Assembly (NCBI GenBank): GCA_913055825.1
Contig: CAJXKB010000016.1
Span: forward strand, 1-47,843
DNA length: 47,843 bases
Source: an uncultured Bacteroidota bacterium
GTDB lineage: Bacteria > Bacteroidota > Bacteroidia > Bacteroidales > F082
Reading direction: 5' to 3'
Positions 8,441 through 43,374 of the stretch are shown here, one piece after another (position 1 is the stretch's first letter; every line of letters starts with the position of its first letter). The translations under genes and the position numbers were made by a program. The notes below the pieces were generated by a model. The model saw only the letters and a list, made by a program, of their open reading frames with translations. It was not told the origin of the DNA and searched no databases.

Positions 8441-8535
8441 ACTAACCAATAGGGGTGCCTTAAAAACAAGGGCTGAGATCAAACCCTCTGAACCTGATTC
8501 GGGTAATGCCGGCGTAGGAAAAAGAGTTTAGCCAC
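8441..8535 (+). promoter_or_regulatory. TPP riboswitch (THI element)
   Basis: The conserved core is present in order: AGGGGTGCC (8451-8459), GGGCTGAGATC (8470-8480), ACCCTCTGAACCTGATTCGG (8483-8502), GTAATGCCGGCGTAGGAA (8503-8520). This is the thiamine-pyrophosphate aptamer. CTAA at 8442 and TTAG near 8528 may form the closing stem. It lies 54 bases before the TonB receptor start, so the receptor should be repressed by TPP. I see no clear intrinsic terminator after it, so control may be at translation (inference). Confidence 0.95.
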
Positions 8536-8588
8536 CGTTAGGATTCCTCTGTTGATTTAATGTAATGTTAATTTAAATCAATCGAGCT

Positions 8589-40972: not shown

Positions 40973-42283
40973 TCACAATTGAAACAATCCGTTGTGTAAA
41001 GCTTTTAGCGTTCTGATCTTATCTTCGGTATTAATTAGGAATGAAACATTGTGGGCGCTGGCACCGTACGAAATCATTCGTATGGGGATGTCGGACAAAG
41101 CACCAAAAAGACGCATGGCGTAGCCCGGGTCGTCGGCATCCACAAGCCCGACTACTCCAACAATGGTTTTGTTCCCGGCTACCTCAACATGGCCATATTT
41201 TTTCAGGTGTTCCACAATTTCCTCTAAATGCCGGTTGTCATCAATAGTAATTGAAACTGCAACTTCAGAAGTGGTAATCATGTCGATGGGGGTTTTAAAT
41301 TCTTCAAAAATCTCAAATACTTTTCGGAGAAAACCATAAGCCATCAGCATCCGGCTCGATTTTATCCTGATTGCAGTGATGTGGTCGCGTGCAGCTACGG
41401 CTTTAAAACCTCTGCCTTGGCCGGCAGCTGAAATTCTGGTCCCCGGATCAGCAGGCTGCAATGTATTTTTAAGCAATACGGGAATGCCGGCATTTTGTGC
41501 TGGGAGTACACAAAGCGGATGGAGAATTTTTGCACCGAAGTAGGCCAGCTCAGCAGCTTCATCAAAATGTAATTGCCTGATTGGTTGGGTTTGATCCACA
41601 AAACGCGGATCGTTGTTTTGTACACCGTCAATGTCTGTCCAAATTTGGATTTCTTCTGCTTCAAGGGCGGCGCCAAACAGCGATGCGGAATAATCACTTC
41701 CTCCCCGCCCCAAATTGCTTATGTTTCCTGTATAATCACTACAAATAAAGCCCTGTGCAATATAAATTTGACTGCCAGGATGGCCTTTTAGACTTTCATT
41801 TATTTGCTGTCTGATGTGATTTATCACAGGTTCCCCTTCTTTATCAAGATGAATCAAAGTGGTGGAGTCCAGTAAAGTTGCATTGAATTTTTGTACGGTT
41901 AACAGTCGATAAAACAGAAAGGTAGACAATTGTTCTCCAATGGCAATTAGCATTTTTTCTGCAAAGGGATCATAAGGCTCATGAATCAGGTTTGTTATCT
42001 TTTCAAAGGATTTCCCGACGTAGGCTTCAGCTATTTCGTCTGTTGACGTAAATAAATCAGTCAGTGTTTGCTGATAATTATTTTGCAATGAATGTAGAAT
42101 TGTTAAAGCATCCTCTTTTTTCCCGGTTCTGATGTTTTGACCGATGGCCGACAATGTGTCAGTAGTTCCGCTCATGGCAGATAATACCACAAAAACCTTT
42201 TTCTCCTGCCGGATAATTTCTACAATGCGTTGCATCCGTTGCGCCGTGCCCACTGATGTCCCTCCAAATTTGTAAACCTTCAT
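40973..42283 (-). CDS. lysC: Aspartate kinase (monofunctional)
   Basis: Aspartate kinase phosphorylates aspartate, the entry to lysine, threonine, methionine and diaminopimelate synthesis. From ATG 42283 it has 436 residues: kinase domain (about 1-290) starting KVYKFGGTSVGTAQRMQ, with NLGRGGSDYSAS and EIQIWTDIDGVQNNDPRFVD, and two C-terminal ACT domains for amino-acid feedback (ITAIRIKSSRMLMAYGFLRK onward). No homoserine dehydrogenase is fused. A TTG at 42301 and ATG at 42298 in the same frame are less likely because the family starts at KVYKFGG. The gene is preceded by a leader ORF and terminator typical of attenuation. Confidence 0.95.
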   Translation of the reverse strand: MKVYKFGGTSVGTAQRMQRIVEIIRQEKKVFVVLSAMSGTTDTLSAIGQNIRTGKKEDALTILHSLQNNYQQTLTDLFTSTDEIAEAYVGKSFEKITNLIHEPYDPFAEKMLIAIGEQLSTFLFYRLLTVQKFNATLLDSTTLIHLDKEGEPVINHIRQQINESLKGHPGSQIYIAQGFICSDYTGNISNLGRGGSDYSASLFGAALEAEEIQIWTDIDGVQNNDPRFVDQTQPIRQLHFDEAAELAYFGAKILHPLCVLPAQNAGIPVLLKNTLQPADPGTRISAAGQGRGFKAVAARDHITAIRIKSSRMLMAYGFLRKVFEIFEEFKTPIDMITTSEVAVSITIDDNRHLEEIVEHLKKYGHVEVAGNKTIVGVVGLVDADDPGYAMRLFGALSDIPIRMISYGASAHNVSFLINTEDKIRTLKALHNGLFQL

Positions 42284-42299
42284 GTTAATTTTTTTCATC

Positions 42300-42334
42300 A
42301 AAAAAGCCCGATCAATTTACGTGACCGGGCTTTT
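42300..42334 (-). terminator. Attenuator-type terminator in the lysC leader
   Basis: On the minus strand AAAAGCCCG (42334-42326) pairs with CGGGCTTTT (42310-42302), extended by GTCA with TGAT around loop CGTAAAT, and is followed by six T. It lies 17 bases before the lysC ATG, where an intrinsic terminator makes sense only as a regulated one. Its 5' arm can alternatively pair with 42377-42383. Confidence 0.7.
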
Positions 42335-42352
42335 ACGTGTTAACTAATTTAT

Positions 42353-42433
42353 TTAATCCATATAAAATAGCTGTTGCCGGTCAGTGGTTTCACTCCGTTT
42401 CAACTGCTTTTTATTTTTAATGATATTCCTCAT
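42353..42433 (-). CDS. Candidate leader peptide of lysC (26 codons)
   Basis: A short ORF reads MRNIIKNKKQLKRSE followed by TTDRQQLFYMD and a stop, 18 bases before the terminator stem. Codons 6, 8, 9 and 12 are lysine, 4 and 5 isoleucine, 16 and 17 threonine. Within it, CGGAGTG (42391-42397) can pair with CACTGACCG (42378-42386), and TGACCGG (42377-42383) with CCGGTCA (42322-42328) in the terminator arm. Stalling at the lysine codons would cover the first segment and favour the antiterminator. It also fits the TAnnTTTG box 18 bases upstream. No experimental support; inferred from layout. Confidence 0.5.
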   Translation of the reverse strand: MRNIIKNKKQLKRSETTDRQQLFYMD

Positions 42434-42450
42434 TTCTTGCTTTGAGCTTG

Positions 42451-42458
42451 CAAATATA
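42451..42458 (-). promoter_or_regulatory. -7 promoter box of the lysC leader transcript
   Basis: TATATTTG on the minus strand lies 17 bases before the leader-peptide ATG at 42433. No strong -33 element. Confidence 0.55.
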
Positions 42459-42719
42459 GAAATTATTTTTATTAGGGTTTAGTCGGGTGAAAATCATAAA
42501 GAAAAAAAAATGCAAGATTAATATACCTATAAACGATAACAGTCAAATAAGAAATAATTTGATATTCGTTGTCAGTTTCTTTTATAATTAAATATAAATA
42601 ATTTAAAACCAATAAATAAGCAATAAAATCACAAGCTATAATTTATAATAATTCTTTTTCGCAGGCAATTTTAAATTTAAATTATTAGTATTAAAAACAA
42701 AATTAGTCAAAAATGGCAT

Positions 42720-42727
42720 TAATTTTG
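42720..42727 (+). promoter_or_regulatory. -7 promoter box of the PorT-like gene
   Basis: TAATTTTG matches TAnnTTTG and lies 38 bases before ATG 42766. Confidence 0.5.
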
Positions 42728-42765
42728 ATAGGCTTACATCATGTTAAATTTTAAAAAATGAAAAA

Positions 42766-43374
42766 ATGAAAAAAGTAAATTTAAGTATGATTGTATTGGC
42801 ACTGATGGTAGCCTTTAGTTTACCTGCACATGCCCAAAAGTTTCACTATGGAGTAAAAGTCGGTTCTAATTTTGCCGTTCAATCGGGAATTGCCGAGTAC
42901 TATGACAACAATAATATCCGCGTGGGCCTGCATGCGGGTTTGATAGGCAGTTATCAATTAAAGGACAACATGATGCTACAAACAGAAATCAATTATGAGC
43001 AGCAAGGTGCCAAGTCGGATAATCTTACCAAAAAATTTGATTATGTGAGTATTCCGGTGCTTTATGATTATTCATTTGGGAAAACGTATCACACCAATTT
43101 GCGTTTTCATTTGAATGCGGGGCCTTATGTTTCTTATTTGGTAAATGCTAAAAGTGTGGCCACTAACAATGGCGTTGAAACGACTACCAACGTGAGACCG
43201 GATAGCCACAAAGCTGAGTTTGGTGCTGTTATGGGTGTGGGGCTTATCCAGCCTGTAGGTAAGCATTACCTCTCAATGGATATTCGCCTGAATTTGGGGC
43301 TTACTCATTTTGCTAAAAACGACAACCAGTCACATAATAAAATGATCGGAGTTTATCTCGGATACATTTTATAA
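42766..43374 (+). CDS. PorT-family outer-membrane beta-barrel protein
   Basis: The 202-residue protein has a signal peptide (cleavage after PAHAQ) and a barrel of about eight strands: FHYGVKVGSNFAVQSG, LHAGLIGSYQLKDNMMLQTE, YVSIPVLYDYSF, RFHLNAGPYVSYLV, FGAVMGVGLIQPVG and MIGVYLGYIL. This is the general OMP_b-brl_2/PorT-like family, which has many paralogues per Bacteroidota genome, so a T9SS role must not be assumed. It is transcribed alone between lysC (divergent) and tsaD (convergent). Confidence 0.85.
   Translation: MKKVNLSMIVLALMVAFSLPAHAQKFHYGVKVGSNFAVQSGIAEYYDNNNIRVGLHAGLIGSYQLKDNMMLQTEINYEQQGAKSDNLTKKFDYVSIPVLYDYSFGKTYHTNLRFHLNAGPYVSYLVNAKSVATNNGVETTTNVRPDSHKAEFGAVMGVGLIQPVGKHYLSMDIRLNLGLTHFAKNDNQSHNKMIGVYLGYIL

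Follow-up and report, generated by a model that had tools for sequence, protein, structure and literature searches.

A candidate lysine-sensing leader-peptide attenuator upstream of lysC in Bacteroidota

Results

The lysC locus and its leader

The window, the whole 47,843-nt stretch of DNA analysed here, carries on its (−) strand lysC, which encodes an aspartate kinase of 436 aa (P0001; 40973–42283; TIGR00657, 292.7 bits against a cut-off of 208.7). The likely start codon is the ATG at 42283, with a second ATG in the same frame at 42298. Aspartate kinase supplies lysine, threonine and methionine, not arginine. Judged by sequence, the product resembles lysine-sensitive aspartokinase 3: this is its best-scoring model (404 bits, under the model cut-off of 455), and its nearest solved structure is the E. 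coli enzyme of that name (2j0w). The window's own genome holds three aspartokinase genes, namely lysC, the bifunctional aspartate kinase/homoserine dehydrogenase gene thrA (L002; 973.4 bits, cut-off 726) and one third gene. Elsewhere in the window there is a TPP riboswitch (8441–8537, (+) strand, 68.9 bits).

The region upstream of lysC, read on the same (−) strand, opens with the sequence TATATTTG (42451–42458), which we take to be a Bacteroidota −7 promoter box (consensus TAnnTTTG). It is followed by a 26-codon ORF, MRNIIKNKKQLKRSETTDRQQLFYMD (42353–42433), with Lys at codons 6 (AAA, 42416–42418), 8, 9 (AAG, 42407–42409) and 12 (AAA, 42398–42400). Four segments with alternative partners lie within and behind this ORF. 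Segment 1 (CGGAGTG, 42391–42397) pairs with 42378–42386, and the lower part of the same arm (42401–42408) with 42369–42376; segment 2 (CACTGACCGG, 42377–42386) contains the antiterminator half TGACCGG, which can form seven pairs with 42322–42328; segments 3 (42322–42334) and 4 (42302–42314) are the 5′ and 3′ arms of a terminator of 13 pairs with a 7-nt loop, ending in a six-T tract at 42300–42305. A simple terminator scan of 41800–42900 reported none, and hence missed this one. The box, the ORF with its four Lys codons at positions 6–12, the 13-bp terminator with six T and the pairings 1:2, 2:3 and 3:4 are all where the first-pass annotation of this DNA had placed them; it had also put the terminator 17 bases before lysC, and the terminator does precede the gene, but the last T and the ATG are separated by 16 bases.

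Conservation within the genus

Twelve genomes of the window's genus were searched, of which nine contain a full-length lysC ortholog; in the remaining three, one lysC is truncated by the end of its contig, and two genomes have distant aspartokinases only. All 9/9 full-length orthologs are preceded by a correctly placed short ORF and terminator, and in 9/9 a TAnnTTTG box lies 14–20 nt upstream of the ORF start, so that relatives within the genus keep the small ORF together with lysC, as the earlier reading had anticipated. Each of the nine thus has what appears from sequence to be a short translatable ORF between a promoter and the first structural gene. A covariance model built from eight of the nine leaders recovered the left-out ninth (L035) at E 7.5e-8, indicating that the leader is conserved beyond chance. 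Run over the 12 genomes, the model gave the nine lysC leaders as its only matches below E 0.001; at E ≤ 0.1 there were 33 matches, nine of them lysC leaders. Six of the weak matches were inspected (L141–L145 and L149, the stretch for L141 being positioned approximately), and one of them, L144, is a his leader.

A second family and the constancy of Lys6, Lys9 and Lys12

Searching 393 genomes of the order with the covariance model yielded six non-self matches at E ≤ 0.001, one of which is a further lysC leader (L151, E 1.7e-5); the other five (L152–L156; stretches for L152, L153 and L155 positioned approximately) resemble ordinary terminators. The phylum search gave three non-self matches (L197–L199), none upstream of lysC; both searches used stricter filters, which lose weak matches. 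A close lysC was found in 8/11 genomes of the family of L151, one of the eight (L168) being cut. A Lys-rich leader and terminator are present at 6/7 readable loci of this second family (model E 6.9e-5 to 2.9e-7), the seventh, L167 (58% identity), having lysC without a leader.

Codon alignment of the 15 leaders from the genus and the second family, in which a one-codon gap in L011 was placed by hand, showed Lys6 and Lys9 in 15/15 and Lys12 in 14/15, with Tyr at that position in L164. The codons themselves interchange between AAA and AAG at the kept positions (AAA 9, AAG 6 at codon 9), and codons 5, 7, 8 and 11 vary. This is the main evidence that an amino acid, rather than base composition, has been kept. 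The expected conservation of Lys codons therefore holds for three of the four Lys codons of the window leader but not for Lys8, which occurs in only 2/15. The alternative sensing codons entertained in the first-pass annotation, Ile4-Ile5 and Thr16-Thr17, are not conserved: both pairs occur in the window leader only (1/15), and Ile4-Ile5 was rejected on this ground. In the leader of L035 (2344–2477, (+) strand) Lys falls at every third codon (3, 6, 9, 12 and 15), as it does in that of L163 (3, 6, 9 and 12).

A reading in which the Lys codons arose by accident from A-rich DNA, and the element is a small transcript, an ordinary terminator or a switch that responds to some other ligand, is extremely unlikely. 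Counts of Lys do agree with such an accident in the window, where four codons compare with 2.65 expected (shuffle p 0.20), ordinary for A-rich DNA, and no single leader of the genus or second family is significant (p 0.075 to 0.61); totals were 31 against 23.0 expected from shuffled bases for the nine genus leaders and 36 against 26.4 for the six of the second family. Moreover, a rule demanding an ORF with at least three Lys, ending 10–90 nt upstream of a terminator, is satisfied at 6/6 second-family loci, and shuffled DNA satisfies it at 3.0 loci on average and at up to 6, so in such A-rich sequence the result is no proof by itself. What composition does not predict is that Lys6, Lys9 and Lys12 stay constant while their neighbours change. 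No Rfam family reaches its gathering score at the window leader or in nine related loci, which speaks against a switch for another ligand.

Lys-rich leaders in Hymenobacter-like genomes

A third group of leaders precedes lysC in Hymenobacter-like genomes, drawn from five loci of a public scan and the best 30 loci among matches in 94/120 genomes. Among these best loci, 26 of the 27 with a close lysC have a Lys-rich leader and terminator; one close lysC (L187) and three more distant loci (L194–L196) are without a leader. Examples are MVKKSKKRNPT, MVKKCKKRIPA, MLKKCFKRPST and MGKKSKKRTPTRPSH, with the terminator GCGCCGGTC; leaders here were started from the innermost start codon. Since leaders of this group and of the second family were selected as ORFs with at least three Lys, the fair control is the same selection applied to shuffled DNA: the rule held at 26/27 Hymenobacter-like loci, whereas over 300 dinucleotide shuffles an average of 1.6 loci, and never more than 6 of the 27, satisfied it. 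The raw count in 25 leaders (101 Lys codons against 27.9 expected from shuffled bases) is inflated by that selection. GC upstream is 0.50–0.58 in the three loci measured, and leaders as Lys-rich as these, far beyond their shuffles, at such a GC content tell further against an accident of composition.

Hymenobacter-like leaders escape the genus covariance model (best E 0.66), so that a separate origin is possible. It is not forced, as several of the branches that separate the leader groups in a tree of 108 proteins (quick mode) fall below the 95 mark (81, 87 and 92).

Comparison of the groups also bears on nascent-peptide arrest, in which the basic peptide K..K..KR itself would stall the ribosome under the influence of free lysine or another ligand rather than at hungry codons. 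Three-codon Lys spacing is kept in 14/15 leaders, and basic peptides can slow ribosomes. Arrest peptides usually conserve a specific sequence, however, whereas here the residues outside the Lys positions vary freely and the Hymenobacter-like leaders differ in both spacing and flanks, making arrest very improbable.

lysC loci outside the leader groups

Of 80 lysC loci, 78 had at least 150 nt upstream and were counted. By a rule that needs perfect stems, and so misses imperfect terminators, 63/78 were without such a terminator, and most lysC loci from other genera have no leader of this kind. A hairpin and T-run lay in range at 15/78: seven in the genus, five in Hymenobacter, and L056, L062 and L091, the last three with no Lys leader. 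At L091, a Flammeovirgaceae lysC, the stretch ~60–140 nt upstream contains a short ORF free of Lys clusters (MTPPPPMEDRTAKGLRNN) and a strong hairpin resembling a terminator, perhaps representing another kind of attenuator. At 12 loci with orthologs from other genera of the window's family, no genus-type leader was detected by the covariance model (nor by eye at 11, L116 excepted), although the same model misses the Hymenobacter-like leaders and leaves room for differently built ones. The first-pass annotation had named loss of the ORF in relatives that keep lysC as a point against it; such loss is absent within the genus (9/9) but is seen outside the leader groups.

Alternative folds and covariation

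RNAfold of 42301–42433 gave hairpin 1:2 together with terminator 3:4 at −35.4 kcal/mol (z −4.4), and none of 200 shuffles was equally low; across 9/9 genus leaders z ranged from −3.1 to −7.6, with hairpin 1:2 in a different form in L035. RNAalifold on eight genus leaders found the same two elements, with a double change at 4/23 pairs. The antiterminator 2:3 also aligned well, 96.4% of cells being paired in the eight sequences, falling to 14–57% when the partner was slid by 1–3 columns; for 1:2 and 3:4 the corresponding values were 94.6% and 19–55%. The terminator helix, of ten consensus pairs, was 100% paired in the eight sequences (two gapped cells set aside). Mutually exclusive pairings 1:2, 2:3 and 3:4, with 3:4 an intrinsic terminator, were thus present in both folds and alignments.

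Column shuffling gave a weaker signal. For 2:3, double changes occurred at 2/7 pairs; 44/500 shuffles matched the observed percentage paired and the covariation score, 155/500 the number of doubly changed pairs and 377/500 the number of pair types. For 1:2 and 3:4, double changes occurred at 3/21 pairs, with 12/500 shuffles matching the percentage and 2/500 the covariation score. Aligned sequences therefore suggest pairing that is well kept and covariation that is modest: of the covariation foreseen for the alternative stems, pairing was borne out but double changes were few.

Lys codons relative to the predicted switch point

Ribosome position was modelled in two ways, with L035 read from its second ATG in the first (masked) model and from its first ATG in the second (free-RNA) model. 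With the A site at codons 6–12 and the RNA masked everywhere upstream of the ribosome's edge, the antiterminator formed in 9/9 genus leaders (probability at least 0.84, and at least 0.80 at codon 13); with the A site from codon 16 onwards it formed in 0/9, a zero that is partly built into the masking. Stalling at Thr16-Thr17 would therefore be unworkable, as the first-pass annotation had suspected, and these codons, unconserved and sited where the model forbids the antiterminator, were rejected as sensors.

When RNA behind the ribosome was left free, eight genus leaders lost the antiterminator at codon 14 or 15 (in the window, three codons after Lys12) and L035 lost it at codon 18, that is, 2–3 codons past the last permissive Lys. 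Over all three groups the folding model put a Lys 1–3 codons before antiterminator loss in 40/41 leaders, the remaining one (L179) showing no loss; ‘last Lys’ here means the last before predicted loss, L161, L162 and L177 carrying further Lys at or after it. A stall at that Lys would accordingly be about the latest that could still switch lysC on. Conserved codons for the end product (Lys6, Lys9 and Lys12 in the aligned leaders) thus appear, in the model, to be placed so as to free segment 2 on stalling.

Lys is the sole residue present within the three codons before loss in all 40 leaders. Arg comes next, in 28/40, and Arg13 directly follows Lys12 in 8/9 genus leaders, Lys-Arg pairs recurring in the Hymenobacter-like group; this would fit an attenuator in which an Arg codon beside the last Lys reports on arginine, alone or together with lysine. 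Such sensing is nonetheless highly unlikely: Arg is found in those three codons in 0/6 second-family leaders, L035 has His13, a single Arg in that position compares with at least three Lys per leader, and the aspartate kinase pathway does not feed arginine.

Known regulatory RNAs

No lysine riboswitch (RF00168) was found at gathering score in the window, nor to E 1 in 42240–42480, nor in any of the 12 genus genomes (0/12) by a search that was positive in 4/14 control genomes. Neither was there an Rfam T-box match at the leader. The best weak match was to the Threonine operon leader, RF00506 (23.2 bits against a gathering score of 55, E 0.02), and membership of that family was rejected, the conserved Thr/Ile codons being absent and the window's own Thr and Ile pairs unique to it among the 15 leaders.

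Discussion

A ribosome-mediated transcription attenuator sensing lysine through charged tRNA-Lys is very probably the best explanation for the parts observed at lysC and how they are conserved, for the competing pairings and for where Lys falls relative to the predicted switch point, and the comparative evidence of leaders, Lys6/9/12 and pairings supports the lysine-sensing reading first made from the window alone. Promoter use, translation, stalling, termination and response to lysine would then take the following course. Transcription would start just downstream of the −7 box, and a ribosome would translate the leader. Given ample Lys-tRNA, it would pass Lys6, Lys9 and Lys12 and cover or clear segment 2; formation of hairpin 1:2 and of terminator 3:4 would follow, and transcription would stop before lysC. 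Were Lys-tRNA scarce, the ribosome would stall on one of the Lys codons, chiefly Lys12, and mask segment 1, so that free segment 2 could pair with segment 3 and lysC be transcribed.

The full-length window RNA folds as 1:2 and 3:4, although at equilibrium the model gives the antiterminator a probability of 0.83 when a ribosome stands on the stop codon (and 0.81 without a ribosome). Because the antiterminator is allowed in both situations, termination would have to rest on 1:2 forming first, as it does in classical attenuators.

Leader-peptide control is plausible in this genus, which has a His-rich hisG leader and Thr-rich thrA leaders. The former (L144; G008:C12, from ~4133, (+) strand) reads MKRLFMHHHHLHPHPLR; a terminator follows it, a few tens of bases upstream of hisG (TIGR00070, 182.1 bits; one genome). 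The latter are ORFs at most 300 nt upstream of thrA (L002, L015–L022), ending for example in TTTTTP and the stop codon; in the window's own genome the thrA leader is MGHTTSFTTTPLGV. The stops of these ORFs fall at a CCCCTTAGGGGG-like hairpin, with no T-rich terminator evident by eye; their expression platform may be unusual.

Control of the entry to lysine synthesis in Bacteroidota is little described in the literature searched, and the 12 genomes of the window's genus are without an L-box. A lysine-specific leader-peptide attenuator would add one more amino acid to those sensed in this way and would constitute a compact sensor of lysine starvation. A broader proposal, for which we judge the chances to be even, is that Bacteroidota evolved lysine-codon attenuators at lysC at least twice, once as the leader with Lys at every third codon common to two families of one order and once as the KKxKKR leader of Hymenobacter-like genomes, filling the role played elsewhere by the L-box; and that, in the window's genus, a Thr-codon leader at thrA and a Lys-codon leader at lysC divide the two aspartokinase branches between them and couple each isozyme, by way of the ribosome, to its own end product. 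A second invention in Hymenobacter-like genomes, if true, would show how readily such switches arise.

The classical leader-peptide attenuators are those of trp, his, leu, ilv, thr and phe. With thrL (RF00506) and the other classical systems the lysC leader shares a short ORF rich in codons for a pathway product, three alternative hairpins and a terminator before the first enzyme gene; unlike thrL, it would sense lysine, resides in Bacteroidota and has no RF00506 match at gathering score.

The lysine riboswitch (L-box, RF00168) is known upstream of lysC in gammaproteobacteria and Firmicutes. The lysC of Shewanella, for instance, appears with RF00168 in PMC2659441. The L-box and the present leader have in common the gene, the presumed signal and the outcome, premature termination; the leader differs in showing no aptamer match and, to judge from its sequence, would sense by translating Lys codons rather than by lysine bound to RNA.

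Nearer relatives by signal have been proposed. SEP5 of Sinorhizobium meliloti, a short ORF in which six codons are for Thr and three for Lys, has been suggested to encode a leader peptide; the downstream gene is called aspartate dehydrogenase and linked by the authors to threonine and lysine synthesis (PMC10117765). On that description it differs from the lysC leader in its mixed Thr/Lys codons, its alphaproteobacterial host and its aspartate dehydrogenase gene. The lysQ attenuator named in Lactococcus lactis (PMC4833913) is likewise predicted, and its gene too bears a name of the lysine type, but that gene, in Firmicutes, is for a permease whose specificity is said to be altered. For Bacteroidota, ‘strong clues’ that amino-acid operons are preceded by leader-peptide attenuators were reported in Flavobacterium psychrophilum (PMC9723704), and short ORFs ‘reminiscent of leader peptides’ in 5′ UTRs of Bacteroides thetaiotaomicron (PMC7366714); neither main text mentions lysC or lysine. 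According to Naville and Gautheret 2010, leader-peptide systems known before their Firmicutes case were confined, ermC apart, to Proteobacteria and Actinobacteria (PMC2965389). We found no description of a lysine leader before lysC in the open-licence literature searched; one may have been mentioned elsewhere. The mechanism is already known; what appears to be new is its specificity for lysine, seen both in Hymenobacter-like genomes and in two families of a single order.
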